DNA of 64,000 nucleotides from Aceticella autotrophica. Lineage in GTDB: Bacteria; Bacillota; Thermoanaerobacteria; Thermoanaerobacterales; Thermoanaerobacteraceae. Below the pieces are notes generated by a model, which did not search any database, was not told the DNA's origin, and saw only the letters and a list, made by a program, of their open reading frames with translations. Each line of letters begins with the position of its first letter. Positions within the stretch are counted from its first letter, which is position 1. Both the position numbers and the translations under genes were made by a program. Below, piece by piece: positions 9,562-28,277 of the stretch. Location: positions 558,001 to 622,000 of the forward strand of contig NZ_CP060096.1 in assembly GCF_017357865.1 (NCBI RefSeq), in the 5' to 3' direction.

Positions 9562-11470
9562 GAGTCCACTCGGAATCATCAATCATAAATTAACAAATAT
9601 GTTATTGAAAGCCATATAATTTACAAAAAAAATACTCCTAAACACACACGAAATAAGCACTTAAGAGGTATTTTTTATGGTATAATATAAATAATATAAA
9701 AAAAATGTGGTGATAAAAATGATAGGAAAAGCAGATAGACAAATGTCATTTTCAGATTATTGGTTACTTGGGAAAATTTCTGAAGTAAGTTATTATCATA
9801 GACTAAGAACATGGGTATTTAATAATCTTAATGAAGAAATGTTTCAGCCACTTTTCTCATACTATGGCAGAGAATCCATATCCCCAGTATATACATTTAC
9901 AGCGATGCTGATACAATTTGAAAAAGGATATTCTGATCGTGAAATGGAAGAAGAATCACGATTCGATGATAGAATTAAATATGCATTAACCGCACCACGG
10001 GATTTTGATGGAATAGATGCAGTAACATTATGTGATCATAGAAAAAGACTGTTTAACAGTGAAATAGGAAAAGAAATATTTATTAAAACAATTAGTCAGG
10101 CAAAAGAAGTAGGACTGTTTAATAAAGACAACTTACATATAATAGATTCATTCATGATTTGGGGCTCTTGTGCCAGACAAGATACTTACACTATGATATA
10201 CCAAGGGATAAAGATGGTTCTCCGTTTCATGAAGTTTTACGAAATGGAAGATGCATCAAAAAAAATACTGAAAAGAACAGATTATGAAGAAAATATCAAA
10301 AAACCCAAAATAGCATGGGAAAATGAAAAAGAAAAAGCAAAATTACTCGAAGAACTTGTTAAAGATGCACTATCACTCGTAGAAAATATAAAAACAAAAA
10401 AAGATATAAAAGATGATTTAAAAAAAGCAATTGAATTATTAGAAAGAATAGCATTACAAGATGTTGAAATAACAAACGATGGGCATGTAAAAATGATAAA
10501 AGGAACAGCGAAAGACAGAATAATATCAGTAGTAGATGACGAAATGCGCCATGGGAGAAAGACCTCATCGAAATTATCAGATGGATACAAAGCTGAAATT
10601 ATAACAGGAGGAGAAAAAGGCTCAGTAGTAGTAGGAATAGAAGTCGATGGAGCAAATATAGCAGATGGTGAACATATGAGTGATCTTATAGAACAAAGCC
10701 GAAGAAACGGCGTTGATATAGATAAACTGTATGGAGATTGTGCATATAGTGACTTTGAAGAAATAGAAAAAAGGAAAGAAGAAGGAACAGATTTTTGCAT
10801 TAGAGTACCGGAAGCAACAAATCCAAGTGGAGGATTTTCAAAAGAAGAATTCAAAATTGATTTAGAAAAAGGAACAGTAGAATGTCCCAACGGACACATA
10901 AAACAATTTGATACTGAAAAAACGCAAAAACATGAGCAAGTTACAGTAAAATTTAGAGCAGAAGAATGTAATGATTGTCCGCTAAAAGACCAATGTACAA
11001 AATCAAAAAAAGGGAGAACAATAAATATACATCCATATGAAAAAGAGATACAAGAACAAAGAGAATATCAAAAAACAGATGAATTTAAAGAAGACTATGC
11101 AAAAAGACCGAATGTAGAAAGAAACATATCAGAACTTACCAGGCATGGCGGACGTAAAGGAAGGTATAGAGGGAAATTAAAAATAAGATGGCAAATGATA
11201 ATGGTAGCAATAAACAATAATATCAAAGTAATAATGAAACATATTTCTAAAATTTGTAATAGACAAATTAAGAAGGGAGAAGTCTGCCCAAAAACGGCTT
11301 AAAGAATGGTTAATGAGATTAAAAATAGCAATAACAGATCAATAAAGCAGAACATACATATTAAAATCAATAACAAAGTCATATATATTTAGTTAAATAG
11401 AGATTATTCTGATAATTTTTGTGATGATAAAAATTTTTAACCTGTAGATAAGCTCTTTCCGAGTGGACTC
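9562..11470 (+). mobile_element. IS1182-family insertion sequence, 1909 bp
   Basis: The ends are perfect 14-bp inverted repeats: GAGTCCACTCGGAA at 9562-9575 and TTCCGAGTGGACTC at 11457-11470, flanked by a 4-bp CTAG duplication. Because the right flank continues with GAGT, the visual palindrome extends to 18 bp, but the reading frame of the protease shows that CTAG is target. One transposase gene fills the element. Perfect ends and an undamaged transposase argue for a recent insertion. A TATAAT-like box at about 9681 could serve the transposase. Confidence 0.92.
9719..11302 (+). CDS. IS1182-family DDE transposase
   Basis: Catalyses cut-and-paste movement of the surrounding element. N-terminal domain (about 1-125) matches the DUF772-type region found in IS1182/IS5-like transposases (MSFSDYWLLGK...FDGIDAVTLCDHR). 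Acidic residues of the RNase-H fold appear in VVDDEMRHGRKTS (near 275), LYGDCAYSD (near 341) and NVERNISELTRHGGRK (near 470); the last includes the late Glu. A Cys-rich insert (CNDCPLKDQC) precedes it, as in the family. Length, 527 aa, is complete. ATG 9719 is preferred over GTG 9707 because GTGGTG then serves as ribosome site. Confidence 0.93.
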   Translation: MIGKADRQMSFSDYWLLGKISEVSYYHRLRTWVFNNLNEEMFQPLFSYYGRESISPVYTFTAMLIQFEKGYSDREMEEESRFDDRIKYALTAPRDFDGIDAVTLCDHRKRLFNSEIGKEIFIKTISQAKEVGLFNKDNLHIIDSFMIWGSCARQDTYTMIYQGIKMVLRFMKFYEMEDASKKILKRTDYEENIKKPKIAWENEKEKAKLLEELVKDALSLVENIKTKKDIKDDLKKAIELLERIALQDVEITNDGHVKMIKGTAKDRIISVVDDEMRHGRKTSSKLSDGYKAEIITGGEKGSVVVGIEVDGANIADGEHMSDLIEQSRRNGVDIDKLYGDCAYSDFEEIEKRKEEGTDFCIRVPEATNPSGGFSKEEFKIDLEKGTVECPNGHIKQFDTEKTQKHEQVTVKFRAEECNDCPLKDQCTKSKKGRTINIHPYEKEIQEQREYQKTDEFKEDYAKRPNVERNISELTRHGGRKGRYRGKLKIRWQMIMVAINNNIKVIMKHISKICNRQIKKGEVCPKTA

Positions 11471-12365: not shown

Positions 12366-12619
12366 TATATTAACCTGAAGGTTACATATCAAGCCATGAA
12401 AGAGAGAACATAAAAGATAATAAAGGGAACGGTGAATTTGGGAAAAGAGATGGAAGATAAGGGATCTAATTTACGGTTTTATAGTAGAACCGTGAAGATT
12501 CTATTCTTAAATACCTTATCTGTAGGCAATATAATTCTAAGACCAAATAAGCAATTTAATAGCAGTCTTATTTAAAAGATATTGTGAATAGTTTAAGATA
12601 TAGAAAAGTGATTAAAATA
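12366..12619. other. Gene-free stretch before the TAC operon
   Basis: AT-rich, stop-filled sequence. A weak inverted repeat (ACGGTTTTATAGTAGAACCGT, near 12473-12493) may be a terminator-like hairpin. No other feature is supported. Confidence 0.4.
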
Positions 12620-12684
12620 ACTTATAAGTAATATTTCTTATAAAAATAGTTGCCTTTATTACTTATAAGTAATATACTATAAGT
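12620..12684. promoter_or_regulatory. TAC operon promoter with repeated palindromic operators
   Basis: ACTTATAAGTAATAT occurs identically at 12620-12634 and 12661-12675; ACTTATAAGT is a perfect palindrome. A third near-copy, ACTATAAGT, is at 12676-12684 and a partial TCTTATAA at 12636-12643. They overlap a sigma-A-type promoter, TTGCCT 12650-12655, 17-bp gap, TATACT 12673-12678. Repeated palindromes across the promoter fit autorepression by the XRE antitoxin encoded downstream; that role is inferred from how such operons usually work. Confidence 0.72.
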
Positions 12685-12697
12685 AAGGAGACAAAGA

Positions 12698-13117
12698 ATG
12701 AAGGTTTTGTATAATATATTATATCCAGAGCAATTTTGTAGTATTAAAATTTATATACATCCTAAATTTGAAGAAGAACTAAGGAGTATTTTGGAATATG
12801 GTGGATATAAAGAAAAGTTTATAAGAATGTATAGGCAAAGACTTAAATTTTTAGAAGAGTATCAAAATCAATGTTATAAGAAAAGAGATTGGTTTGAAAT
12901 CTTAAAGAAAACTGATGGATTGTATTCAATGAAGTTTAAGGGATCGAAAAATATAAGAATAATTTTTAAGTTTGCTGGATATAACAAACAAAATATTGCA
13001 TTATTGTTATGTACATTTGAAGAAAAAAATTCAAAAAATAATAGTAAAAGTAGTTATAAAGAGGCAATCTATATTGCAGAAGAAAGATTATATGAAATAA
13101 AAGAGCTTCTTGATTAA
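12698..13117 (+). CDS. higB: HigB/RelE-superfamily toxin (Gp49-like)
   Basis: Predicted ribosome-dependent mRNA interferase, first gene of a toxin-antitoxin-chaperone operon. At 139 aa it fits the phage-derived Gp49-like (HigB) branch of the RelE superfamily: FEEELRSILEYGGYKEKF, then a central GLYSMKFKGSKNIRIIFKF strand pair and IALLLCTFEEKNSK, with a basic helical C-terminus. Catalytic residues in this branch are poorly conserved, so activity is inferred. AAGGAG at 12685-12690 precedes ATG 12698. Toxin-before-antitoxin order is typical of higBA, and 34 bases separate it from the antitoxin. Confidence 0.82.
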   Translation: MKVLYNILYPEQFCSIKIYIHPKFEEELRSILEYGGYKEKFIRMYRQRLKFLEEYQNQCYKKRDWFEILKKTDGLYSMKFKGSKNIRIIFKFAGYNKQNIALLLCTFEEKNSKNNSKSSYKEAIYIAEERLYEIKELLD

Positions 13118-13151
13118 CTTTTTGTAACATAATTAAAAGGAGGGGTTCTAT

Positions 13152-13541
13152 ATGGATAATAAATTAAAACTAAGAGATGCATGGAAGTTAATTGATGATT
13201 TAGCTGATGAATCGACAAAAGAAAAGTTTGAATTAGATGATATATTATATGAGATTTCTATGAAGATATATGAATTTAGGATTAAAAATGATTTGACACA
13301 AAAACAGCTTGCTGAGAAATTGGAAATTAAGCAATCAATGGTATCAAAACTTGAAAGTGGTCAATATAATCCAACCATTGAACAACTGTGGAAAATTTCA
13401 AAAAAGTTAGGATGGAATTTTGAGATAATATTTGGGGAAGGGAATAGCAAAGCTAAAATCTGGGATACAGTTGACTTTGAAGAAAACCTAAATGATGAAA
13501 CAGATAAGAAATTAGAGACTAAATTGGCGGTGGGGTCATGA
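13152..13541 (+). CDS. higA: HigA-like XRE antitoxin with C-terminal extension
   Basis: DNA-binding antitoxin, 129 aa. Residues about 40-95 form an XRE helix-turn-helix: LTQKQLAEKLEIKQSMVSKLE then GQYNPTIEQLWKISKKLG. The N-terminal 35 residues probably contact the toxin. After the HTH comes a tail of about 35 residues with hydrophobic KIWDTVDF and then charged residues. In known TAC systems such a tail is the chaperone-addiction segment that a SecB-like protein must bind to keep the antitoxin stable. Ribosome site AAAAGGAGGGG. Its TGA overlaps the next gene's ATG (ATGA), so translation is coupled. Confidence 0.86.
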   Translation: MDNKLKLRDAWKLIDDLADESTKEKFELDDILYEISMKIYEFRIKNDLTQKQLAEKLEIKQSMVSKLESGQYNPTIEQLWKISKKLGWNFEIIFGEGNSKAKIWDTVDFEENLNDETDKKLETKLAVGS

Positions 13542-14008
13542 TTAATGCAAATAGGGTGTTAGCAGATTTTCAGTTTGTTGGAAATAGGGTATCTGATTTT
13601 AAGATTGAGACGAGGGATATAAGAACAAATGAGTTTAAAGTACACGTTACTTATGATTTTTATTATAATATAAAAGAAGTTAAAGAATTTGAAGATAAAT
13701 ATATAGGATATATTGAATTTATAACTGTGATAAAGGCAAAAGTTAAGAATTCAATTTTGTTTAAAATTAATTTAACTATGGAAGGTGCATTTATTGGAAA
13801 TACTCAAAAGTTAAAACAAGAGGATTTTCTTAGTATGCTGGAGCTAAATGGCTTAACGACACTTTCTCAGTTATCGCGGGCATATATTTTAACTGTTACA
13901 TCTCTTTCTGGAATAAATCCGCCAGTAAAATTGCCTATGATAAATATTTTTAAATTAATGCAGGAGAAAAAGAATAATGAAGTAAACAAAAATAAACAGC
14001 AGGAGTAG
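13538..14008 (+). CDS. SecB-like chaperone of a TAC system
   Basis: At 156 aa this protein has the SecB size and strand pattern. The best marker is near residues 104-140: NGLTTLSQLSRAYILTVTSL followed by GINPPVKLPMINIFKL, matching the conserved SecB end, which has an Arg-containing helix, a proline pair and then an LPPINF-like strand. It lies in one operon with higBA and overlaps higA by 4 bases, the arrangement of the M. tuberculosis HigB1-HigA1-SecB(TA) system. Gram-positives generally lack general SecB, so a dedicated antitoxin chaperone is the likely role. The C-terminus lies against an inverted-repeat remnant (14004-14171) that supplies the stop codon, so a few native residues may be lost. 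Confidence 0.75.
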   Translation: MINANRVLADFQFVGNRVSDFKIETRDIRTNEFKVHVTYDFYYNIKEVKEFEDKYIGYIEFITVIKAKVKNSILFKINLTMEGAFIGNTQKLKQEDFLSMLELNGLTTLSQLSRAYILTVTSLSGINPPVKLPMINIFKLMQEKKNNEVNKNKQQE

Positions 14009-14700: not shown

Positions 14701-16152
14701 ATGACAAGGTCTACTACACCATCATTTATACTAACATTGAGATTAAACACACAAAAATATCAAGAAGATATTCTTAATAAAAGATTTAATATCGGAAGAA
14801 TGATATATAATGCTTGTCTTAGAGAAACATATAAAAACTATAGACTCATGAAAGAAAGTAAAGCGTACATAAAAACATGCAAAATGCCGAAAGGTGAAGA
14901 ACGTAACAACAGATTTGCAGAACTAAGAGAAAAATACAATCTAACCATAACATATATAGATGATTATGTATCACCGATGCAAAAGAAATTCAAGAAAAAT
15001 ATAGACAGTCATACAGCACAGAAATTAGCAGAAAGAGCATTAGATGCTGTAAATAAATTAATCTATGGTAAAGCTAAGAAAATTCATTTCAAGAAATATG
15101 GCGAAGAAATATCGCTGGAAAGTAAAACAAATAAATCAGGAATCAAATACAGAGACGGATACATAAAGTGGAATGATTTAGAAATACCTGTAACAATAAA
15201 ACCAAACGATAAGTATGCACAGCTGGCAAGCCAAAGCAGAGTCAAATATTGCAGGATATTCCGTCAATATGTAAAAAACAGATACAAATATTATGTACAA
15301 CTTATATTAGAAGGAATACCGCCGTTAAAAGAAAGAAAAATAGGAAAGGGTGATGTGGGATTAGATTCAGGAACACAAACCGAAAGCATAGTATCGGATA
15401 ATGAGGTTAAACTTGTTGAACTTGCACCCGAAATAGATTCTATAGACAGAGAAATAATCCGACTGCAAAGGAAACTGGAAAGAAGTAGACGTATGAATAA
15501 TCCCGAAAACTATAACTCCGATGGTACAGTAAAAAAAGGGACAAAAGGAAAGTGGAAAAAAAGCAAAAACTATATTAAAAATCAAAACAAACTAAAAGAC
15601 AGATACCGAAAAAGAGTAGCAGTAAAGAGGCAAAGCCTTGAGAGATTAGCAAACTATATAATATCACTGGGAAATAAAATCAAGGTTGAAGATATGAACT
15701 ACGATGCACTTTCAAAAAGAGCAAAAGAAACAACAAAAAACAGAAAAACAAAAAGGTTTAACAAGAAAAGGAGATTTGGCAAATCCATCGGAACAAAATC
15801 ACCGGGAATGCTTCTTAATATAACAGACCGAAAACTCCACTACTTTGGTGAAGAACTAATAAAGGTAGACAAAACAAAAGTCAAAGCAAGCCAATACAAT
15901 CATATAACCGATACTTATGATAAAAAAGACCTTTCAGACAGATGGAACTGCTTTAACTATAACGGCAAAGAAATAAAAGTACAGCGTGATTTATACTCAG
16001 CTTATCTTTTGCAAAACACTGAAGATAACAAAATAGACAGAAGTAAATGCATTGAAAAATTTGATAATTTTTTAAAACTTCATGATAAAGAAATAGAAAG
16101 ATTAAAAAAATTAAAAGAGACAAAACAGTTGTTAGGCAGTATGGGAGTATAG
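14701..16152 (+). CDS. tnpB: TnpB-family RNA-guided nuclease, variant without a zinc finger
   Basis: 483 aa. An N-terminal OrfB-type helical region leads into a split RuvC domain: Asp222 in VGLDSGT, Glu330 in IKVEDMNYDAL, Asp430 in VQRDLYSAYLL. These match the D-E-D triad of TnpB, so the nuclease may be active. The two CxxC pairs normally between motifs II and III are gone: the places read ASQYNHI and WNCFNYNG, leaving one Cys. A Lys/Arg-rich insert (about 260-310) enlarges it. In characterised relatives TnpB cuts DNA next to a short target motif using an RNA from the element's right end; guide use here is inferred. Ribosome site GAGGTGG. Confidence 0.85.
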   Translation: MTRSTTPSFILTLRLNTQKYQEDILNKRFNIGRMIYNACLRETYKNYRLMKESKAYIKTCKMPKGEERNNRFAELREKYNLTITYIDDYVSPMQKKFKKNIDSHTAQKLAERALDAVNKLIYGKAKKIHFKKYGEEISLESKTNKSGIKYRDGYIKWNDLEIPVTIKPNDKYAQLASQSRVKYCRIFRQYVKNRYKYYVQLILEGIPPLKERKIGKGDVGLDSGTQTESIVSDNEVKLVELAPEIDSIDREIIRLQRKLERSRRMNNPENYNSDGTVKKGTKGKWKKSKNYIKNQNKLKDRYRKRVAVKRQSLERLANYIISLGNKIKVEDMNYDALSKRAKETTKNRKTKRFNKKRRFGKSIGTKSPGMLLNITDRKLHYFGEELIKVDKTKVKASQYNHITDTYDKKDLSDRWNCFNYNGKEIKVQRDLYSAYLLQNTEDNKIDRSKCIEKFDNFLKLHDKEIERLKKLKETKQLLGSMGV

Positions 16153-16640: not shown

Positions 16641-17714
16641 ATGTTAATACAATGTACAAAAAGATTATTAAATGGATTGAATGTAAAGCCTTCATTACAT
16701 AAAGATGAAGACCCGTTATTTTGCTGGCATGCCAATTTAATATCATTAAATCGCAGGAAAACGATAGTTCTTGTTAATGATAAGAACAGATATGTTATTG
16801 TTTTATATGGACTTAAGGCTAAAGATTTTAAAAAGCTTGATAAACTTATATTAAATGCTATTCGTGAAACTTTTTCACATGAATGCATTAAAGATGAGGT
16901 TATAGAGGAATATATAAATAGAGCCGGGGAAGTTATTTATGCCAAAACAAAGGATAAAAGCTCTGTAGCAAGGATGAATAAATCCTGTGATATTGTAAAT
17001 TCTTATCAAGATTCATTAATGAATGATTCCATTTATCAGAGTGATATCAGCAAAAGAGCAAGCCGTTATTGGGTAAGGATACGTGAATGTCGTTATATAA
17101 CTCCAAGTGAAGAGATGCATAGAGATTTGGAAGTCCTTTCAGGTAAGCCTATTTTTTGTTGTAAGGCGGCAAAGATTAAAGTAACACTTGAAATGAAAAA
17201 GTATAAAGTATGGCGAAAGCTGATAGTACCACTTAATATGACGTTTACTGAGTTTCACGAGGTATTGCAGGCGGCTTTTGCATGGAAGGATTGCCACCTT
17301 CATGAATTTTTTATTTATGGAAATGATTATGAGAATAAATTGTTTATTAACCACCCGGCGTATCATAAAGAAGGGTATAAAGCGATTGTCAATTTGGTTA
17401 GTGATGAAGAAGCGTTTGATTATCCAAGTGATGTTGAAATGAAATTTGAAAGAGGTATAAAGCTGTCACAATACATACCACAATACAAAAGGCTGTTATA
17501 TAAATATGACTTTGGGGATGGTTGGCAGCATTATATTGAAGTTGAGAAAATTATTGATGATTATGATTTAAATTATCCTGTTTGCCTTGAGGGAGAGGGA
17601 AATGCTCCGCCAGAGGATGTAGGAGGGGAATTCGGTTATGAAGAGTTTCTCAATATTATATCTGATAAAAATGACCCAGAATACGAGGATATGATGGCAT
17701 GGGGTAAAAGATAA
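16641..17714 (+). CDS. pRiA4b ORF-3-like protein with N-terminal DUF6933-type domain
   Basis: 357 aa, cytoplasmic, function unknown. Residues 1-135 resemble the DUF6933 type (QCTKRLLNGLNVKP near the start, then WHANL and NRYVIVLYG). The second half is the plasmid pRiA4b ORF-3 domain: VTLEMKKYKVWRKLIVP, then FHEVLQAAFAW, YKYDFGDGWQHYIEVE and CLEGEGNAPPEDVGGEFGYE. The family normally ends with about 15 more residues; here the frame stops at GKR and a -1 frame continues KDKKYNNYVA, so a small C-terminal frameshift is likely. The ribosome site is weak. It sits next to toxin-antitoxin genes, common for this mobile-DNA-associated family. Confidence 0.78.
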   Translation: MLIQCTKRLLNGLNVKPSLHKDEDPLFCWHANLISLNRRKTIVLVNDKNRYVIVLYGLKAKDFKKLDKLILNAIRETFSHECIKDEVIEEYINRAGEVIYAKTKDKSSVARMNKSCDIVNSYQDSLMNDSIYQSDISKRASRYWVRIRECRYITPSEEMHRDLEVLSGKPIFCCKAAKIKVTLEMKKYKVWRKLIVPLNMTFTEFHEVLQAAFAWKDCHLHEFFIYGNDYENKLFINHPAYHKEGYKAIVNLVSDEEAFDYPSDVEMKFERGIKLSQYIPQYKRLLYKYDFGDGWQHYIEVEKIIDDYDLNYPVCLEGEGNAPPEDVGGEFGYEEFLNIISDKNDPEYEDMMAWGKR

Positions 17715-17783: not shown

Positions 17784-18041
17784 ATGTTAGCAGTAAATTA
17801 TTCAAACGCACGTCAAAAATTTAAAGAATATTGCGATATTGCAAATAAAGACTATGAAACCATTATTATTACCCGAAAACGTGGAGGCAATGTTGTTATG
17901 CTTTCGGAAGAAGAATACAATAATATCATGGAAAATCTGTTTGTTCGAAGCGATAAGAAAGCCTATGAACGACTTTTGAAATCTATGGACCAGCTGAAAG
18001 CCGGGAAGGCATCTCAGAGAGAGCTTGACACCAATGAATAA
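17784..18041 (+). CDS. yefM: YefM antitoxin (Phd/YefM family)
   Basis: 85-aa antitoxin and autorepressor. The N-terminal Phd/YefM DNA-binding domain reads LAVNYSNARQKFKEYCDIAN, then IIITRKRGGNVVMLSEEEYNNIME. The C-terminal acidic-basic tail (LLKSMDQLKAGKASQREL) is the toxin-wrapping segment typical of YefM. Ribosome site GGGGGTG. Its end overlaps the YoeB start by 8 bases. Confidence 0.93.
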   Translation: MLAVNYSNARQKFKEYCDIANKDYETIIITRKRGGNVVMLSEEEYNNIMENLFVRSDKKAYERLLKSMDQLKAGKASQRELDTNE

Positions 18042-18294
18042 AATGTTTACGGATATTGCATGGGAAGATTATGAATATTGGCAGATTAATGATAGGAAAA
18101 TACTCAAAAAGATCAATGAACTTATAAAGGACATTGATTGGAACGGTAATGAAGGGAAAGGCAAGCCTGAACCTTTAAAGCATGAATTACAAGGATTGTG
18201 GAGCAGGCGTATAACCGCAGAACATCGTTTGATTTATAAAATTGACGATAAAAATATTTATATTCTTCAATGTCGGGGACACTACGACGATTAA
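18034..18294 (+). CDS. yoeB: YoeB toxin, ribosome-dependent mRNA endonuclease
   Basis: 86 aa, full length. Family blocks are present: DIAWEDYEYW, then KGKPEPLKHELQGLWSRRIT, EHRLIYKI and a C-terminal CRGHYDD. Residues matching the YoeB active site are visible: Glu in KHEL, Arg in SRRI or EHR, His in GHY and the terminal Tyr. It cleaves mRNA at the ribosomal A site when free of YefM. ATG 18034 is preferred over TTG 18025 on spacing from GAGAGAG. The pair is intact. Confidence 0.93.
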   Translation: MNKMFTDIAWEDYEYWQINDRKILKKINELIKDIDWNGNEGKGKPEPLKHELQGLWSRRITAEHRLIYKIDDKNIYILQCRGHYDD

Positions 18295-18535: not shown

Positions 18536-20023
18536 ATGGGAAATAAACTTGACTTGAACGTCATAAAACCGATTGATGAGGTAAAGTATTTGTCAGCTGA
18601 AAATGCTTCGAGATACCGCCTTATCATGAGGTATTTTTATGAACAGTACCAAAAACTTAAATACTGGATGTACAAAGAGGATATATATGAGTATGTAAGA
18701 CAATTTGATATATTTAATGATTATACACTTGAAAAATGTGAGCAGGATTTAAAAGCACTTACTGAGTGGAAAAACCTTATTGCGACACAGGATACAAGCA
18801 AAGCTTCTACAATTGACGAATTCAAAAATAAAAAATTCAGGTATCAGTTGAGCCCATATTCTATTGAGATAGAAAGAATGACAATCAGGCTTGAGGGTAT
18901 TATTGGATATGGTGGTTCTCTCCAGCCATCTTTGTTTGAAAGGATTTACAGGAGTATCATAAATATAACCGATATAGCAAAAAAAGATGATTTGCAGGAT
19001 ATAAGCAGATGGTGGGAGGACCTGAATGTTGATTTTGAGAATATATACCACAATGCGACAGATTATATTGCAAGCCTGCAGAGTTCTAATGCCGATGAAC
19101 TTATGAAGTCAGAACAATTTATTATTTATAAGGACAAGCTTATAGATTATTTAAGAGACTTTATAAAAGACCTTCAGAGGTTTTCTATTGCAATCCAAGG
19201 TTTTTTACAGAAAGTTAACCAGGATGATGTTAATTTAGTTATAGATAAATTATGCCGATATGAAATGAGTATCCCGAGAATTGACCGAATTTTGAGTGAA
19301 AAGGAAATAAAAGAAGATTTGCTGGACAAATGGAACAATATATCTTTTTGGTTTACGGGATATAATTTTGAGGACAGTGAAGCTTCCCGCCTTTTAAATA
19401 TATCCAATGAAATAATCAGGAAGATAACGATGTATGCTGCAAGGATAGCAGAAAACAGGATGAAGTCTGTAAGCAGGAAAAATGATTATTTAATTCTTTC
19501 TAAGATGTTTGCAAATGCAAATACGTTAAAAGAAGCAAATTTATTGTCTGCAGCGGTTTTTGGCTCTTTTTATACAAGACATATAACGGGTGATTTTGAG
19601 AGAAAAACAGAAAGCATAACGCAGAGTATCTGGGAGGAACAGCCCTTTAAAATAATTATAAAGCCGAAGACAAGAAATTACAGCAGCACAACCAAAACAA
19701 GTGCGATTTTGGACAAAAGCAGTGATAAAACAGAAATATTAAAAGAATACCTTAATGATAAAAGATATGAAAATGAAATAATATCAAAATGTATTATAGG
19801 AAACAGGATATGCATAAAAGATTTGCCAATAGTAAAACCATTTGTAAGGGCGGCTTTGCTTAAATGGATAGGGAAAGCTATGGGTAGAAATGGGAAGACG
19901 GGGAAAACGGAAGATGGGAGGACATACAGGGTTCATATTCCGAAGGATGGTGAAAGGGCAATTTTAAGATGTACTGATGGAAACCTTGATATGCCTGCTA
20001 TTGTAATAGAGTTTGTTGATTGA
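18536..20023 (+). CDS. jetA: Wadjet JetA subunit (TIGR02677/DUF2397-type)
   Basis: 495 aa. Kleisin-like (MukF-equivalent) subunit of an SMC complex that recognises and helps destroy closed circular plasmid DNA. Start NKLDLNVIKPIDEVKYLSAE and the winged-helix-like opening (YRLIMRYFYEQYQKLKYWM) fit the TIGR02677 group; the end has RAALLKWIGKAMGRNGKTGK and RAILRCTDGNLDMPAIVIEF. The middle is helical. Order A-B-C-D with tight spacing identifies it better than any single motif. The ribosome site AGAGGA is about 11 bases from ATG. Confidence 0.85.
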   Translation: MGNKLDLNVIKPIDEVKYLSAENASRYRLIMRYFYEQYQKLKYWMYKEDIYEYVRQFDIFNDYTLEKCEQDLKALTEWKNLIATQDTSKASTIDEFKNKKFRYQLSPYSIEIERMTIRLEGIIGYGGSLQPSLFERIYRSIINITDIAKKDDLQDISRWWEDLNVDFENIYHNATDYIASLQSSNADELMKSEQFIIYKDKLIDYLRDFIKDLQRFSIAIQGFLQKVNQDDVNLVIDKLCRYEMSIPRIDRILSEKEIKEDLLDKWNNISFWFTGYNFEDSEASRLLNISNEIIRKITMYAARIAENRMKSVSRKNDYLILSKMFANANTLKEANLLSAAVFGSFYTRHITGDFERKTESITQSIWEEQPFKIIIKPKTRNYSSTTKTSAILDKSSDKTEILKEYLNDKRYENEIISKCIIGNRICIKDLPIVKPFVRAALLKWIGKAMGRNGKTGKTEDGRTYRVHIPKDGERAILRCTDGNLDMPAIVIEFVD

Positions 20024-20033
20024 AGGTGATATT

Positions 20034-21167
20034 ATGGAAGAACTCCAAATGCTTCTTGAAAATTTCTGGATAATGCGAAGTGATAGGGAAAGTTTCAATA
20101 AAATACGGGATTCTGAAAATAGAATCAGAACTTTTATCGAAGAAAAGCTTGGATACAGATTGATCATAAACCCATATATTATTAAGCTTGAGAAAGTCCC
20201 GGGGGATGCCGAAGAATGGATGGGTATAGATGCATTTCAAACGCCAATGGATTATGCATTTTTATGCTTATTAATGGCATTCCTTGAAGACAAAGGACCT
20301 GATGACCAATTTGTCCTGTCAAGCATAACAGAATATATTGAGGCGCAGTACGATGGACCTGATAGGGTAGACTGGACACTTTTCCAGCACAGGAAGTCTC
20401 TTGTCCGCGTCTTGAATTTTGCGGTAGATTTGGGTATGATTAAAGTCGATGATGGCAATCAGGAGAGATTTTCAGATAGCAGAGATACAGAAGTTTTGTA
20501 TGAAAATGTAGGTGTTTCGAGATATTTTGTAAGAGCTTTTAACAGGGAAGTAACACATGATATGAATGTTAATGATTTTATAGAGGATGATTTTCCGCTT
20601 GACAGTCAGGATACAGTTGTTCAAAGGAGGCACAGGGCATATCGCAAATTGCTTTTATCGCCTGTTGTATATAGTGAAGGTCCGGATGACCAGGATTTTA
20701 TGTATATAAGGAATTATAGAAATACTATAGCAAAAGATTTTGAGGAATATCTTGGCGCAAAGCTTCATGTCCATAAGACCTGTGCTTTTATTATATATAA
20801 TGACAATAAATACTTAAAATCGTGTTTTCCAGACAGAAATAAAAACATATCTGATATAATGCTTCAAGTGTGTACTGTGATACGAGAAATGATTTTAAAT
20901 GGCGAACTTGCTTACAACTATGATGATACAATTGATATGACTGAGGCTGAATTTATAAATATAATTTTGGGCTTGAAGGATAGATTTAGCAGCGGCTGGT
21001 ATAAATCATACAGGGAAATGAGTGAAAAGCAGCTTATTCAAGAGGTCATTGAAAATATGGAGAGTTTTAAGATGATAAAGAGGGATGAAAATTTACATTC
21101 TGTTAAGATATTGCCTATGGCGGCAAAATTAATTGGTGAATACCCTGCTGATTTTATAAAAAGCTAA
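20034..21167 (+). CDS. jetB: Wadjet JetB subunit (TIGR02678/DUF2398-type)
   Basis: 377 aa. Corresponds to the MukE-like KITE subunit that binds JetA in the SMC complex. Recognisable stretches are ENFWIMRSDRESFNKI and IRTFIEEKLGYRLI at the start, FQTPMDYAFLCLLMAFLEDK near 70, and HRKSLVRVLNFAVDLGMIKV near 120, typical of TIGR02678. Winged-helix folds are expected. ATG 20034 follows GAAGGTG with good spacing, 10 bases after the jetA stop. Confidence 0.85.
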   Translation: MEELQMLLENFWIMRSDRESFNKIRDSENRIRTFIEEKLGYRLIINPYIIKLEKVPGDAEEWMGIDAFQTPMDYAFLCLLMAFLEDKGPDDQFVLSSITEYIEAQYDGPDRVDWTLFQHRKSLVRVLNFAVDLGMIKVDDGNQERFSDSRDTEVLYENVGVSRYFVRAFNREVTHDMNVNDFIEDDFPLDSQDTVVQRRHRAYRKLLLSPVVYSEGPDDQDFMYIRNYRNTIAKDFEEYLGAKLHVHKTCAFIIYNDNKYLKSCFPDRNKNISDIMLQVCTVIREMILNGELAYNYDDTIDMTEAEFINIILGLKDRFSSGWYKSYREMSEKQLIQEVIENMESFKMIKRDENLHSVKILPMAAKLIGEYPADFIKS

Positions 21168-21231
21168 GTCTTTTTATGTCATTCCGGATGAAGGCTCATC
21201 TTAAAATAATAGAATAAGGAGATTGTTATTA

Positions 21232-24200
21232 ATGATTGAAAGATGGATGATTAACAGGATAGGGCTTCTTAATTTCTGGTATTATGATGATGAAATATTT
21301 GAGTTTGCAGATGGAAGGCTTCTTTTAAGGGGTGCCAATGGTTCAGGAAAGTCTGTCACAATGCAGAGTGTTATACCCCTTTTGCTTGATGCGAATAAAA
21401 GCCCGGAAAGGCTTGACCCATTTGGTTCAAGGGCAAGAAAGCTTGAAGATTATCTTCTTGGTGAGGAAGATATAAATGGTTTTGATGAGAGAACAGGTTA
21501 TCTTTTTATGGAATTTAAGAGAGAGAAGAAAGATAATTATATCACAATTGGTATGGGATTAAAAGCAAAAAGGCATCAGAGTATGGATTTCTGGGGCTTT
21601 GTAATCCTTGATGGAAGGCGAATAGGTATTGACTTCTTTTTATATAAAATGGAAATAGGTGATGATGGGAAAAGAGTAAAAGTTCCATTTACCAAAAAAG
21701 AACTTAAGAACAGAATAGGGAATGGCGGGGAAGTAGTTGAAAGCCAGAAAGAGTATATGGAGATGGTCAATAAGCATATCTTCGGTTTTGACTCTATTGA
21801 TGAATATGATGAACTTATAAAACTCCTTGTTCAGCTTAGGAGTCCGAAACTTTCAAAAGATTTTAGACCGACTGTAATATATGAAATAATGAAAGCCTCG
21901 CTTCCATCGCTTACAGATGATGACCTAAGGCCGCTTTCTGAGACAATAGAAAATATGGACCAGATCAAGATGCATCTTGATAAACTTTATAGAAATATGG
22001 CTGCCGTGAAAAAACTGAAAAATGATTATGATAACTATAACAGGTACATCCTTTATGAAAAATCGAGTGATTTGATAAAAACATATAATGATTTATATGC
22101 ATTAAAAAAAGAATATGATGAGTTAAATAGAAATATGGAAACATACAGAATTACTATACAACAGCTTGGTGATGCCATTATATCACTTGAAAACGAAAGA
22201 GATGCAATGAAGAAGAAGGAAGAACAGCTTTCAAACGGTGATGCTAAAAGGACACAGCAGGAGTTAATTGAGGAAGAAAACAGGTTAAAGACATATATTG
22301 CCGATAAGGAAAAAAAAGACAGTGAGTTAAGAAATAAACAGGATAAATATTATGATTTAGAAAAAAAGTTAAAAAGCATTCAGGATGATAAGTATATACG
22401 TGATAAGCAAATTAAAGATAAATTTGACGAAATATCTTCAATTGCACAGGATATAGATTTTATGGAACATGAATTTTCATATAGCGAACTTAAAAAGGTA
22501 TATGGAAATGAATTTGACTTTGGATACTGGAAAAGTGAGCTAAAAAAGCATAGGGAAAAGATAAAACATGCACTTAATGCATTGAAAGAAGAAGCAGAAG
22601 CGAACAAAAAATATGATGCTTCACTTGTTGAGCAGGAGCGGTTTAAGAAAGCTAAGGAGAGTAAAGCTAAGAATGTAGAAGAAGCAGAAAGGCAGTTTGT
22701 TGAAGAAAAAAGCAGATATGTTGAAAAAGTATACGACTGGTCGGAAAATAATATAGAGTTGAAGCTTAGTAAAGAAGAACTGGAAGGACTGAGTCGTGTT
22801 ATACTTGCATATGGTGATAATACAGTCTTTGATGATATCATATCATATGTGAGAAAGCCGTATCAGGAAATATCAAACGGAATTCAGCAGGAAATCTTGA
22901 GGCTTGAAAACCAGAAAGAGCTAAAACAAGGTGTTCTTGAAGAAAAGATCAAATTGCTTGATGAATGGAAAAACAAAAAAGATCCTGAGCCGGAGAGGGA
23001 TATACAGGTTGTAAATAATAGAAAAAGGCTCAAGACGGCAGGAATTCCCCATATTCCTTTATATATGGCAGTTGACTTCAAAGACGATGTTGATGAAATT
23101 ACACGGGGGAATATAGAATCTGCGATGGAAGATATGGGCCTTCTGGATGCCCTTATCATACCCGGGAAATATTTTGAAAAAGCGCTTGAAATGGATAGTA
23201 ATATGGCGGACAAATATATTATGCCGGGAACTTTCAACATGATGTTAAATGTATCGCAGTATTTTAATGTTGTTGATAATGAGGAAGGTGTTTCGGCTGA
23301 GGATATTTCGGATGCTTTAAGCAATGTATTTATATGCGAAGAAAACGGCACAACATATGTTGACCAGAATGGAACATATGGAATAGGTGTAATAAAGGGA
23401 AAAGCCAGAGATGGCATAAGACATAAGTACATTGGTTTTGAATCAAGAAAGCGCTACAGAGAAGAATTGATAAAGTCTATAGAGGAGGAAATACGCCTTA
23501 TAAAAGCGGAGATATCCTCAATTGACGATGAGATTAGTTCAAGAAAATTAAGAATACAAAAATTGGATTATGAATATTCAATATTCCCTGTAAAAGACGA
23601 TATTGAAGAGGCGTATAAATATTTAAAAACGGCAAATGCTGATTATGAATACGCCTGCAATAAACTTGATGAGCAGTTATTAATAGTTAAAAGTTGTTTT
23701 GAGGAGCTTCAGAAGAATAAGGCAATTGTCAGGGAATTGACATCCTGTATCAGTATACATGCTGATATTGAAACGTATACTTCTGCGTATGAAGATATAG
23801 AAGAATATAATGCCGGTCTTCAGGAGATAGAAATATCTTACAGCAAATATGTTTTGCTTATTTCAAATGAAGAAATGTTAATGCAACAAAAACAGGATAT
23901 CGAATATGATATTGACAACTTAAAATATGAAATAAGCGTACTTGGGAGCAAAATACAAAATTCTGCTAAAAAAATTGAAATGCTAAAAGATGTATTAAAA
24001 GAGCTTGGACTTGAGGAAATTGAAAGGGAGCTTGAGATTTGCTTAAGAAGGCTTGATGAAATACCGGATGAGATAAAAGATAAATCTGCTGAAAAAGCAA
24101 AGCTTGAAGAACGTCTTGAGAGAAATGCAAAAGACCTTTTAAGTCTTCAGGAAGAAATAAATTTAAAGCAGGATATTTATAATATTGCAGAAGAAGGTTT

Positions 24201-25386
24201 AAAGAAGGAATTATCGCTTGGTTTTGTTAAAAATGACGTTGAGGTTGATAATATATTAAAATTAAGTAAAAATATTGTTTCTGAATACAGGATGGCTTTT
24301 GATAAAGCGGGTTTTGACAGAGAAAAATTCACAGGGAAACTTCAAAATGTATATTATGAATGCCGTAACGAGCTTTTAGAGTATGGACTTTCAATTGGAT
24401 ATATTTTTGATGTGGTTTCTACTTCAGATGACGAAAAGATAAAAGAAGCGGAGAATAAACAAAGGAGATTGCAGATTACGGCAAATATAAGCGGTAAAAT
24501 TGTGTCGCTCTATGCGCTTTATTCTAATATTGAAGATGACATAAGAGCAAATGAGGGTCTTTTAAGGGATACGGACAGGCATCTTTTTGAAGAGATCATA
24601 ATGCACAATGTCGGCATTAAGATAAGGGCAAAAATTTTTAAAGCCGAAGAATGGGTAAAGAAAATGAACCGGCTTATGTCGGAAAGGGATACATCAAGCG
24701 GGCTTAAATTTTTCCTTGAGTGGAAGAGCGTTGCTGCAGATAATGAACAGGAGCTTGACACAAAAGAACTTGTCGATATTCTGAAATCCGATGCTGATAT
24801 GCTTAAACAGGAAGTATTTGATAAGGTCGTGAACCATTTCAGGTCAAAGGTAGACAGAGCCCGTAGAGTACTTGAAGAAAAGGATAATACGGAAACCTTT
24901 CACAAAATTATGAGAGATATACTTGACTACAGAGATTGGTTTGAGTTCAGGCTTTATTACAGAAAAGAAGGGGAAAACCGCAAAGAGCTTACGGATAGTG
25001 CCTTTAACAAGCTAAGCGGTGGGGAAAAGGCTATGGCAATGTATATACCTTTGTTTTCTGCGGTTTATTCAAGATATGAGGGTGCATCTCCATCTGCACC
25101 GCGGGTAATATCCCTCGATGAGGCATTTGCTGGTGTTGATGATACGAATATAAGGGATATGTTTAAACTGATTGAGGATTTAAGATTTAATTTTATTATA
25201 AATTCGCAGGTTTTGTGGGGAGATTACGATACGGTTCGTGAGCTTTCTATCTGTGAGCTTGTAAGGCCTAAAAACGCAGATTTTGTGACAGTTATAAGGT
25301 ATTTATGGGATGGAAGTGTAAAACATCTTATGTTAGAAGAAGATGAGGAAACTGCCATTACGCAAGTGGGTGCTGCTAATGTATAG
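21232..25386 (+). CDS. jetC: Wadjet JetC SMC-like ATPase (TIGR02680-type)
   Basis: 1384 aa. MukB-like ATPase that powers DNA loop extrusion in the Wadjet complex. The Walker A motif GANGSGKS is at residues 34-41, followed by the family-specific LDPFGSRARKLEDYLLGE. Long Lys/Glu-rich coiled coils (about 260-560 and 750-1080) flank a hinge-like region near 580-730 (HIPLYMAVDFKDDVDEITRG). The C-terminus carries the signature LSGGEKAMAMYIPLFSAV and Walker B RVISLDEAFAGVDDTN, so both ATPase halves are intact. ATG 21232 follows AAGGAG. Confidence 0.93.
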   Translation: MIERWMINRIGLLNFWYYDDEIFEFADGRLLLRGANGSGKSVTMQSVIPLLLDANKSPERLDPFGSRARKLEDYLLGEEDINGFDERTGYLFMEFKREKKDNYITIGMGLKAKRHQSMDFWGFVILDGRRIGIDFFLYKMEIGDDGKRVKVPFTKKELKNRIGNGGEVVESQKEYMEMVNKHIFGFDSIDEYDELIKLLVQLRSPKLSKDFRPTVIYEIMKASLPSLTDDDLRPLSETIENMDQIKMHLDKLYRNMAAVKKLKNDYDNYNRYILYEKSSDLIKTYNDLYALKKEYDELNRNMETYRITIQQLGDAIISLENERDAMKKKEEQLSNGDAKRTQQELIEEENRLKTYIADKEKKDSELRNKQDKYYDLEKKLKSIQDDKYIRDKQIKDKFDEISSIAQDIDFMEHEFSYSELKKVYGNEFDFGYWKSELKKHREKIKHALNALKEEAEANKKYDASLVEQERFKKAKESKAKNVEEAERQFVEEKSRYVEKVYDWSENNIELKLSKEELEGLSRVILAYGDNTVFDDIISYVRKPYQEISNGIQQEILRLENQKELKQGVLEEKIKLLDEWKNKKDPEPERDIQVVNNRKRLKTAGIPHIPLYMAVDFKDDVDEITRGNIESAMEDMGLLDALIIPGKYFEKALEMDSNMADKYIMPGTFNMMLNVSQYFNVVDNEEGVSAEDISDALSNVFICEENGTTYVDQNGTYGIGVIKGKARDGIRHKYIGFESRKRYREELIKSIEEEIRLIKAEISSIDDEISSRKLRIQKLDYEYSIFPVKDDIEEAYKYLKTANADYEYACNKLDEQLLIVKSCFEELQKNKAIVRELTSCISIHADIETYTSAYEDIEEYNAGLQEIEISYSKYVLLISNEEMLMQQKQDIEYDIDNLKYEISVLGSKIQNSAKKIEMLKDVLKELGLEEIERELEICLRRLDEIPDEIKDKSAEKAKLEERLERNAKDLLSLQEEINLKQDIYNIAEEGLKKELSLGFVKNDVEVDNILKLSKNIVSEYRMAFDKAGFDREKFTGKLQNVYYECRNELLEYGLSIGYIFDVVSTSDDEKIKEAENKQRRLQITANISGKIVSLYALYSNIEDDIRANEGLLRDTDRHLFEEIIMHNVGIKIRAKIFKAEEWVKKMNRLMSERDTSSGLKFFLEWKSVAADNEQELDTKELVDILKSDADMLKQEVFDKVVNHFRSKVDRARRVLEEKDNTETFHKIMRDILDYRDWFEFRLYYRKEGENRKELTDSAFNKLSGGEKAMAMYIPLFSAVYSRYEGASPSAPRVISLDEAFAGVDDTNIRDMFKLIEDLRFNFIINSQVLWGDYDTVRELSICELVRPKNADFVTVIRYLWDGSVKHLMLEEDEETAITQVGAANV

Positions 25387-26662
25387 AGAAGAGCTGGAGT
25401 ATTTTAAAAAGAGAAATGGATATCACAGAATTTTTAAAGCAATACGTGAAAAATATAGAAGTCTCGGCAGGATAGGCGGGGTTGTGAAGATTGATAATCT
25501 TAGAGATGATGAAAAAGAAATATTAATGAGCCATTTAAAAAAAGATTACAGCAAAAAGAAGTCTGCCAATATTGACGTGGCTAAGTTTGAGGAGTCGTTA
25601 AAATACACCCGCTTTGATGAATATACACTGATAGACATACTTGAACACTATTTTGGCGAAAAACTTACCAGCAAAAAAGAGGATTTGGATGAATTTATAA
25701 AGGAGAGAGAAGAGTTCTTTAATGAGCTTTTCTCTAAATATGATGGTTTCAGATGTATAGATTGGCTGAAATCTCTTTATAATGGAACTGCAGTCGGCAT
25801 AAGGTCAGTAAACCAGCGCTATATAAAAGATAAGGATGCATTAAAAACAGATATAATGTATGTATGTCATGCACTTAACAATCTTCCTGTATATAAAGGT
25901 GAAAAGAAGCGGCTTCCTGTATTTGCATCACAGATTACCCGAAACCCCCACAGCTTTGACTTATGTACAGAATGCGGCAGCGTGCTTAAAAACGCATTAT
26001 GTACAATTATGGGCATGGACGAGGTAAAAGGTGCTGAAGAAATAGCAGAGCTTTATTATAGTGCAGGAATACTCATCGATGAAATATCAAACTTTGTGAT
26101 ATTATCAGGGCTCACAGCATATAACGGTGATAAAGAGAATCATGTGTTCGTAGCTGCCTATGAAAATAAGGAAGTGCTTCAGATTCCTCTTTTGAATTTA
26201 AGTAAAATTGATAGAGTAATAAGTCCGTTAAAAAAGGTATATGTAGTCGAAAATCCGGGTGTTTTTACATCATTGATAGATGCTGCTATAGAACTTCCGC
26301 CGCTCATATGCACATATGGCCAACCAAAACTGTCATCACTTATACTCCTTGATATGCTGTATAAAGAAGGGACTGAAATATACTATTCAGGAGATTTCGA
26401 CCCGGAAGGTCTCCAGATAGCGGATAGATTATGCAAAAGATATAAAGATAAGTTTCATTTTTTAAGGTATAGTGTGGAGGATTATTTAAATGCACTTTCC
26501 GGTGAGAGTATTAGTGATATGAGGCTTGCCAAACTGAATAAAATTGAGTCACCTGAATTGTATGATGTAATAAAAGAGATGAGAAAAATAAAAAAAGCCG
26601 GATATCAGGAGCTTATATTAAATGAGCTTATTGGGGATATAAAACAGGAAATACTCAATTAA
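25379..26662 (+). CDS. jetD: Wadjet JetD nuclease (TIGR02679/DUF2399-type, Toprim)
   Basis: 427 aa. Toprim-containing subunit that cleaves plasmid DNA once the SMC motor detects a small circle. The Toprim Glu lies in VYVVENPGVF and the acidic pair in YYSGDFDPEGLQIADRL, matching the DUF2399 C-terminus; the N-terminal half (KKRNGYHRIFKAIREKYRSL) is the usual arm. ATG 25379 overlaps the jetC stop by 8 bases, so translation is coupled. All four Jet genes are uninterrupted with key residues, so the system is probably active. Confidence 0.88.
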   Translation: MYREELEYFKKRNGYHRIFKAIREKYRSLGRIGGVVKIDNLRDDEKEILMSHLKKDYSKKKSANIDVAKFEESLKYTRFDEYTLIDILEHYFGEKLTSKKEDLDEFIKEREEFFNELFSKYDGFRCIDWLKSLYNGTAVGIRSVNQRYIKDKDALKTDIMYVCHALNNLPVYKGEKKRLPVFASQITRNPHSFDLCTECGSVLKNALCTIMGMDEVKGAEEIAELYYSAGILIDEISNFVILSGLTAYNGDKENHVFVAAYENKEVLQIPLLNLSKIDRVISPLKKVYVVENPGVFTSLIDAAIELPPLICTYGQPKLSSLILLDMLYKEGTEIYYSGDFDPEGLQIADRLCKRYKDKFHFLRYSVEDYLNALSGESISDMRLAKLNKIESPELYDVIKEMRKIKKAGYQELILNELIGDIKQEILN

Positions 26663-26676
26663 TAGGGGGTAATTTT

Positions 26677-27072
26677 ATGACAGAAGAAAGATTAAGAGAA
26701 AAACTAAATAATTATGAAAAAGCTCTTTTACGTTTAGAAGAAGCTCTTAAAGAAATAAATGTAAATCAATATGTTTATGATTCTGTAATTAAACGGTTTG
26801 AGTTTACTTATGAACTGGCGTGGAAACTGATGAAAGCATTTATAGAATACAAAGGCGGTAATGATATTAAATTTCCCAGGGATATTTTTAAAGAGGCTTT
26901 TGCGACAGGAATAGTAGAGGATGGTGAGGTATGGCTTTCTATGATAAAAGACAGAAATCTTTCGAGCCATACTTATAATCAGGAAGGAGCAATAGAAATT
27001 TACAATCGTATTAAAAATTTATATTGGCAACATTTTAAAAACTTAGTTAAAACTATTAAAGGTGGAATTTAA
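26677..27072 (+). CDS. HEPN-domain protein of an MNT-HEPN pair (HI0074-type)
   Basis: 131 aa, helical bundle. The sequence RFEFTYELAWKLMKAFIEYK with the downstream KDRNLSSHTYN contains the R-x4-H motif of HEPN RNases. HI0074-like proteins were named nucleotidyltransferase substrate-binding subunits; in MNT-HEPN modules the HEPN protein is the toxin and the partner modifies it. It starts 14 bases after jetD behind AGGGGG, so it belongs to the same transcript as Wadjet. Confidence 0.88.
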   Translation: MTEERLREKLNNYEKALLRLEEALKEINVNQYVYDSVIKRFEFTYELAWKLMKAFIEYKGGNDIKFPRDIFKEAFATGIVEDGEVWLSMIKDRNLSSHTYNQEGAIEIYNRIKNLYWQHFKNLVKTIKGGI

Positions 27073-27074
27073 TA

Positions 27075-27374
27075 ATGAAATTTGGTCTTAATGATAAGTT
27101 GATTGATTCTCTTAAAAATATATTTGAAAAATACCCGGAAATAAAAAGAGCTGTTATTTATGGTTCTCGTGCAAGAGGAGATTTTAAATCAACCTCAGAT
27201 ATTGATATAGCGATATTTAATGAAAAAGATTTAAGTCCTGAACTTTATTTAGAAGTTGATGAAGCAGTAGGAATATATAAAACAGATATAGTAGAAGTTG
27301 GAAGATTACATAACGAGAAGTTACTTGAAAATATTTTAAAGGATGGTATTGAAATATATAAATCGAAGGGTTAA
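27075..27374 (+). CDS. Minimal nucleotidyltransferase (MNT), partner of the HEPN protein
   Basis: 99 aa, cytoplasmic. The pol-beta-fold signature GSRARGDFKSTSDIDIAIF (GS...DxD) is at about residues 30-48, with a later acidic residue in KTDIVEVG. Known MNT antitoxins add AMP or similar groups to the HEPN toxin and so block it; that activity here is inferred. It follows the HEPN gene after 2 bases with GGTGG as ribosome site. Confidence 0.9.
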   Translation: MKFGLNDKLIDSLKNIFEKYPEIKRAVIYGSRARGDFKSTSDIDIAIFNEKDLSPELYLEVDEAVGIYKTDIVEVGRLHNEKLLENILKDGIEIYKSKG

Positions 27375-27599: not shown

Positions 27600-27625
27600 A
27601 TAATTAATTAAAGGAGGTGTTCAAT

Positions 27626-27868
27626 ATGATAGTTAATGCTACAGAATTTAAAACAAGAGCAGGAAAATATTTAGAAATTGTAGAAAAGGAAGAAATAATA
27701 ATAACAAAGAATGGGAAAGAAGTAGCAAAGCTAGTTCCTATAATAAAGAATGGTACTCCAAATGCTGATTTTTTATATGGATTATTATCAGATTTTGAAA
27801 ATAAAGATATAACAAAAAAACAAATTCGAGACGAAAGGATAAATAAGAAATATGAAAATATTGATTGA
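27626..27868 (+). CDS. Phd/YefM-family antitoxin
   Basis: 80 aa. Opening MIVNATEFKTRAGKYLEIVE then EIIITKNGKEVAKLVPI is the Phd/YefM-type fold also paired with PIN toxins. The remaining residues form a charged toxin-binding tail. ATG 27626 is chosen because AAGGAGG at 27610-27616 gives ideal spacing; GTG 27617 would touch the ribosome site. It overlaps the toxin by 17 bases. Confidence 0.9.
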   Translation: MIVNATEFKTRAGKYLEIVEKEEIIITKNGKEVAKLVPIIKNGTPNADFLYGLLSDFENKDITKKQIRDERINKKYENID

Positions 27869-28277
27869 TACAAATGTCATTCTTGATGTTTTACTAAAAA
27901 GAGAGCCTTTTGCTGAAGATGGATATACTATATTTAAAATGGCAGATGAAAATGTTATTAAAGCTTATTTAGCTGCTTTTGCGGTTACAGATATATATTA
28001 TTTTATTAATAAAAATCTTAATCACGATATTTGTTTAAAGGCTATTAAAGCATTATTTAATATTATGAATGTTGCGAGCGTAACAAGGCAAGACATTGAA
28101 AAAGCAATGGCTATTTCAGAATTTAATGATTTAGAAGATGCTTTGCAACTACAGTTATTAAAAAAGGTAAAAGGTAATTTTATAATAACTAGAAATGAAG
28201 AATTTCAAAAGTTAACTGATAAAGCAATTTCGCCAAAAGAATTTGTACAAAATACTAAAAATTTTAAAAATAAATAA
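27852..28277 (+). CDS. vapC: PIN-domain RNase toxin (VapC-like)
   Basis: 141 aa. PIN-fold metal-dependent RNase. MKILIDTNVILDVLLKREPF carries the first Asp and conserved Asn; a later Asp/Glu pair is in FNDLEDALQ (near residue 96) and FIITRNEEF carries the final acidic position. The domain is complete. RNA target is unknown; VapC toxins often cut tRNA or rRNA. It is translationally coupled to the antitoxin. Confidence 0.9.
   Translation: MKILIDTNVILDVLLKREPFAEDGYTIFKMADENVIKAYLAAFAVTDIYYFINKNLNHDICLKAIKALFNIMNVASVTRQDIEKAMAISEFNDLEDALQLQLLKKVKGNFIITRNEEFQKLTDKAISPKEFVQNTKNFKNK

Follow-up and report, generated by a model that had tools for sequence, protein, structure and literature searches.

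A probable HigBAC-type toxin-antitoxin-chaperone operon with a SecB-like third gene in Aceticella autotrophica

Does a run of three genes in the Gram-positive bacterium Aceticella autotrophica encode a toxin-antitoxin-chaperone (TAC) module, and would such a module be a new kind of system? We analyzed a 64-kb window (positions 558001 to 622000) of the complete 2.27-Mb genome; the host family includes Thermoanaerobacterium and Caldanaerobacter. Three plus-strand open reading frames (ORFs) in the window form one operon (i.e., a toxin gene, then an XRE antitoxin gene, then a gene for a SecB-fold protein), and a good ribosome-binding site precedes each of them (Table 1). The original prediction had named a HigB-like toxin, an XRE antitoxin, and a SecB-like gene in this place and order, with the last two overlapping as ATGA; all three ORFs were present, and the overlap was seen at positions 13538 to 13541. 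The span given there (12620 to 14008) does contain the ORFs, but its start falls within the upstream operator.

Table 1. Features of the operon and its surroundings (positions are those of the window)
Feature	Position	Strand	Evidence
IS transposase gene, upstream of the operon	9707-11302		Pfam search
Upstream operator copy, ATAACTTATAAGTAATA	12617-12633	.	Pattern search, 0 mismatches
Probable promoter: -35 TTGCCT (12650-12655), 17-nt spacer with operator, -10 TATACT (12673-12678)	12650-12678	+	Operator conservation in relatives
Promoter operator, perfect 18-bp palindrome, TATTACTTATAAGTAATA	12657-12674	.	Palindrome 9/9; motif upstream of toxin gene in 20/21 loci
Shine-Dalgarno AAGGAG of toxin gene	12685-12690	+	Read from sequence
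Toxin, divergent HigB/Gp49-type RelE-superfamily protein, 139 aa	12698-13117	+	AF2 pLDDT 85.5; PDB fold matches; weak Gp49 in 6/13 members
Shine-Dalgarno AAAGGAGGGG of antitoxin gene	13136-13145	+	Read from sequence
Antitoxin, HigA-like XRE protein, 129 aa, HTH residues 39-87	13152-13541	+	HTH_3 E 1e-15 (Pfam)
Antitoxin C-terminal tail, residues 97-129, candidate chaperone-addiction (ChAD) segment, W104 in IWDTVDF	13440-13538	+	Missing in 89-aa HigA of nearest two-gene relatives
Shine-Dalgarno-like GGTGGGG of chaperone gene, within last codons of antitoxin (AVG)	13529-13535	+	Similar G-rich stretch in nearly all relatives
SecB-like TAC chaperone (HigC type), 156 aa	13538-14008	+	AF2 pLDDT 84.7; Foldseek; NCBIfam SecB E 4.8e-5
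DUF6933/pRiA4b ORF-3 gene, downstream	16641-17714		
YefM-type antitoxin and YoeB-like ORF, downstream	17784-18294		Second ORF by eye
Complete type II Wadjet, anti-plasmid, ~4.5 kb downstream of TAC operon	18536-26662		
HI0074-type HEPN and nucleotidyltransferase pair, downstream	26677-27374		Second ORF by eye
Phd-like and PIN-like pair, downstream	27617-28277		Both by eye

The 11 best PDB fold matches of the toxin model (Foldseek) were HigB2, RelE, or YoeB/ParE toxins, led by Vibrio cholerae HigB2, Thermus thermophilus RelE, and one YoeB/ParE toxin; the match probabilities were 0.84 to 1.00, but the E values were only 5e-3 to 6.5e-2. Regarding Pfam, the window toxin matched nothing above chance, Gp49/HigB (PF05973) included, while six of the 13 toxin relatives matched PF05973 weakly (best E, 1.5e-4). 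The toxin had no PADLOC match, and a sequence search of solved structures with the toxin alignment returned nothing meaningful. On the basis of the model, the toxin has a predicted RelE/BECR fold like that of HigB, and it may act by ribosome-dependent mRNA cleavage.

Alignment with classical HigB indicated that the toxin retains N85, R87, F107, and K110. Across the toxin family, N85 and R87 do not vary, and K110 hardly does. The lysine found at Phe+2 in classical HigB is an invariant glutamate (E109) in this family, with a lysine (K110) adjacent. The catalytic basic residues of Mycobacterium tuberculosis HigB are R68, R77, and K95, the last being essential (PMC9098466); when the two toxins were matched by eye, K79 (also basic) lay at R68, R87 at R77, and E109 at K95. 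Because a glutamate occupies the K95 position, the catalysis of this toxin may differ from that of the usual HigB, or its activity may have been lost.

The nearest chaperone-less relatives (L096 and L097) are classical Gp49-HigA pairs of the same phylum, and their 89-aa HigA stops exactly where the tail of the window antitoxin starts. This tail had been described as an extra hydrophobic one: it is indeed extra, at 33 residues, but it is polar/acidic overall, with a single hydrophobic stretch, IWDTVDF. In the relatives L005 to L007, the tail has evolved faster than the core (45 to 61% versus 84 to 86% identity) and has kept IWDTV, its most conserved internal part. Across the family, the position of W104 is kept aromatic: 11 of the 16 homologues have W there, and four have Y. 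The earlier emphasis on the KIWDTVDF region as a candidate addiction segment is supported by this conservation and by the lack of the tail in two-gene HigA. After IWDTVDF, the tail has a conserved end (LAVGS, VGEAA). A ClpXP-type degron at the antitoxin end (AVG, GEAA, or LAA) was considered and rejected: the codons concerned hold the Shine-Dalgarno sequence of the chaperone gene, which at least partly explains their conservation, and this conservation is therefore no evidence for a degron. No sequence homology could be demonstrated between the tail and known ChADs, as expected given that ChADs lack significant similarity to each other (PMC5105189). The M. tuberculosis ChAD, EVPTWHRLSSYRG, uses a tryptophan and a second aromatic residue (PMC6377645); the aromatic residues of the window tail suggest a resemblance that does not imply homology. 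We infer that the tail, as a candidate ChAD, makes the antitoxin chaperone dependent.

The AlphaFold model of the third protein (pTM, 0.79) consists of four long strands and two helices. Its top 19 PDB fold matches were all SecB (Haemophilus influenzae and Escherichia coli) or Rv1957, with E values of 9e-7 to 3.6e-5 and with 5mtw among the top matches, so the SecB match that had been anticipated from structure prediction was obtained. In contrast, a Pfam search gave no match to PF02556 (SecB export chaperone), the family named in the original prediction, or to any other family. PF02556 matched nine of the 16 chaperone relatives at E values up to 0.1 (best, 1.3e-5), the NCBIfam SecB model matched the window protein weakly, as did the PADLOC CmdC profile (E, 3.3e-5), and neither the protein nor its alignment hit anything meaningful when solved structures were searched by sequence, although the predicted fold did match. 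Given that PF02556 gave no match over the cutoff, we call the protein SecB-like. An invariant P128-P129 after the long helix falls, as matched by eye, at the region of P155-P156 of the M. tuberculosis chaperone, which contact the antitoxin tail (PMC6377645). Searches of plasmid, phage, and viral collections for chaperone relatives returned none. In the fold search, the SecB matches were followed by two uncharacterized streptococcal proteins, PDB 2hng and 2o2a (Streptococcus pneumoniae SP1558 and a Streptococcus agalactiae protein).

The host has no detectable housekeeping SecB, as originally supposed: PF02556 had no match in the 2.27-Mb genome, and the family profile found the chaperone as a single copy, with no second one. 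These searches are to be read in light of the fact that the PF02556 model misses the window chaperone itself, so that it could also have overlooked an additional SecB from a different branch that is just as diverged.

We placed the promoter by the conservation of the operator in relatives, because a promoter scan alone performed no better than shuffled sequences or chance. The operator core, ACTTATAAGTWAWA, occurs only at this promoter in the whole genome. Of the 21 loci compared, distant relatives included, 20 have TATAACTTATAAGTTATA or a sequence close to it ahead of the toxin gene, and the operator typically lies between the -35 and -10 boxes where it is located at the promoter. This arrangement is the one expected for autorepression by the antitoxin, whose binding is predicted. 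A literature search with the operator core returned no toxin-antitoxin operator paper among the matches listed. At one locus, L012, the cassette is otherwise intact, but upstream of position 584 its promoter has been lost as far as the ATG: the -10 box and the Shine-Dalgarno sequence are gone, along with one half of the operator.

The same gene order was found in Thermoanaerobacteraceae, in a second and related families of the class, in Syntrophomonas and Clostridiaceae metagenome-assembled genomes (MAGs), and in a Firmicutes MAG; the ordered cassette recurs in many Clostridia and Thermoanaerobacteria. All three genes were intact in at least 17 loci, and all three are under purifying selection (dN/dS, 0.09 to 0.21 against relatives at dS above 0.5). 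Such conservation of order across the intact loci, together with the low dN/dS values, places the cassette beyond chance.

The operon shares its toxin-antitoxin-chaperone order with the M. tuberculosis TAC operon (Rv1955 HigB1, Rv1956 HigA1, and SecB-like Rv1957), as well as the RelE-fold HigB, the XRE antitoxin with a Trp-bearing C-terminal tail, and the SecB-fold chaperone. It differs in that the chaperones are 13 to 15% identical, the tails are not alignable, the window toxin has no K95 equivalent, and the host is a Gram-positive bacterium of a thermophile family. Compared at the level of architecture, the E. coli HigBAC system is the same and also has a HigB-type toxin. According to PMC11980606, which cites Mets et al. 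2024, that system is anti-phage, its HigC chaperone protects HigA, and its trigger is the lambda major tail protein. Classical two-gene HigBA pairs (L096 and L097) have a Gp49/HigB toxin and an XRE HigA in the same order, but their HigA is tailless and they have no chaperone.

CmdTAC (PD-T4-9) also has a SecB-like third gene, whose CmdC profile is the one matched weakly by the window chaperone. However, its toxin is an mRNA ADP-ribosyltransferase, and we rejected membership of the operon in CmdTAC because the window toxin is HigB/RelE-like by fold and has no PADLOC match. Three genomes of the same class (G003, G004, and G012) hold both CmdTAC-like and HigBAC-type systems as separate cassettes, 2 to 14 kb apart.

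Several other SecB-linked loci were observed in the phylum. CmdTAC-like cassettes (a CmdT-like gene, a small ORF, and a SecB-like gene) are present in many genomes (L019 [661 to 1860], L020, L021, L056 to L060, L063, L064, L066, and L068); the assignment is by PADLOC for L019 and L020 and by eye for the others. In an apparent operon of L071 (770 to 2507) and L073, the gene for a PF02556 SecB lies between a first gene for a RAMP-superfamily protein (PF03787; E, 7.9e-6) and a last gene for an uncharacterized 232-aa protein, and in L069, L072, L074, and L075 a similar SecB-like middle gene lies between genes for uncharacterized proteins. These cassettes are possibly another SecB-linked system. 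L067 (1450 to 2664) encodes a 404-aa protein with a C-terminal SecB domain (residues 292 to 387; E, 4e-8), followed by a 247-aa uncharacterized protein, and L065 (456 to 1806) is an MqsR-MqsA-SecB-like three-gene TAC of the same phylum.

Reports of SecB, including toxin-antitoxin-associated SecB, extend beyond the alpha-, beta-, and gamma-proteobacteria, and Firmicutes are named as one of the groups that have SecB (PMC4257090, 2014); CmdTAC homologues have been reported from Gram-positive bacteria (PMC11618068). On the basis of these precedents, the operon is not a novel kind of system, and the novelty originally attached to a TAC operon in a Gram-positive host did not hold; the operon is a further example of the already known HigBAC/TAC type, with a predicted function. 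More than 90% of genomes with a toxin-antitoxin-linked SecB lack a solitary SecB (PMC4257090). A literature search found no paper joining SecB, Caldicellulosiruptor, and toxin-antitoxin.

The operon is located at the edge of an island with a type II Wadjet system (best E values: JetA2, 3.5e-207; JetB2, 1.3e-145; JetC2, 0; JetD2, 2.6e-161) and three other toxin-antitoxin pairs. A TnpB-like RNA-guided nuclease gene (14701 to 16152) scored 64.6 bits, against an NCBIfam cutoff of 100, and no adjoining TnpA was noticed. The Wadjet and toxin-antitoxin neighbors here, the CmdTAC-like neighbors in related genomes, and the analogy with HigBAC make a defense role for the operon likely.

By analogy with the M. 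tuberculosis TAC (PMC5105189, PMC6377645) and E. coli HigBAC (PMC11980606), the operon would work as follows. During normal growth, a SecB-like tetramer would bind the hydrophobic stretch (W104, IWDTVDF) of the antitoxin tail during its emergence from the ribosome and would thereby maintain the folded state of the antitoxin and shield it from proteolysis, the antitoxin would neutralize the HigB-like toxin, and the XRE antitoxin dimer would cover the operator between the -35 and -10 boxes and so repress the operon. The ATGA overlap and the Shine-Dalgarno sequence inside the antitoxin gene would couple the synthesis of chaperone and antitoxin. If the chaperone were titrated away or in short supply, the antitoxin would be lost, and the toxin, as a RelE-superfamily member, would block translation. 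The setting would favor defense against phages or other mobile elements. We put forward only tentatively, as an unlikely extension, a TAC branch in which a HigB with the invariant glutamate cuts or binds RNA differently, is restrained only through the chaperone in a host without SecB, and is triggered by a protein of a phage of thermophilic Gram-positive bacteria that competes for the chaperone.

Could the third gene instead encode an unrelated general SecB-like chaperone for export or folding that is merely cotranscribed with an ordinary two-gene HigBA? The TAC chaperones tested so far can substitute for E. coli SecB in export (PMC5105189), and in Thermoanaerobacterium butyriciformans (L004/L024) the chaperone frame is open despite a broken toxin and antitoxin, which could reflect another use or recent decay. 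We nevertheless consider this explanation very improbable, because the toxin family, present in 17 of 398 sampled genomes of the phylum, was accompanied in all 17 by the chaperone, entire or as a remnant (two further weak toxin matches were classical HigBA pairs), and because the chaperone itself is sporadic (24 of the 398 genomes), unlike a housekeeping chaperone. The presence of the tail in these cassettes and its absence from the two-gene relatives, the ATGA coupling, and the shared operator also argue against it.

With the catalytic lysine replaced by the invariant E109, the toxin could have lost its ribonuclease activity, and the operon could by now be decaying or serve as an autoregulated locus; the many related loci in which the toxin is broken would fit this view as well. 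When loci were counted individually, with kinship ignored, 17 were intact in all three genes, the toxin was broken or missing beside an intact antitoxin and chaperone in six (L009, L011, L027, L031, L039, and L041), only the chaperone was intact in L004, and the remaining loci were remnants without an intact toxin. An intact toxin beside a broken antitoxin or chaperone was seen in none of the loci examined. Some of the frameshifts are possibly draft-assembly errors, but such errors would not favor the toxin. That the toxin breaks first would be expected if it were active and its upkeep costly; moreover, the window toxin gene is unbroken, its dN/dS of about 0.1 in comparisons with relatives at dS 0.75 to 0.98 indicates purifying selection, and its family conserves N85, R87, and, nearly, K110. 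We therefore give this explanation very little credence. The operon is very probably a HigBAC-type TAC module, for which the antitoxin's need of the chaperone, the repression, the toxicity and target of the toxin, the trigger, and the role in defense are predicted properties.

The locus represents a compact, well-conserved TAC family whose toxin and chaperone go unrecognized by Pfam in this genome. Two of its features deserve testing: the tail, which is specific to the family, and the replacement of K by E in the toxin. Natural controls are provided by the two-gene relatives that lack the tail and by the series of toxin-first decay, and the Wadjet and toxin-antitoxin neighborhood makes the defense role testable. 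Because no housekeeping SecB is detectable in the host, chaperone addiction could be studied there free of general SecB interference.
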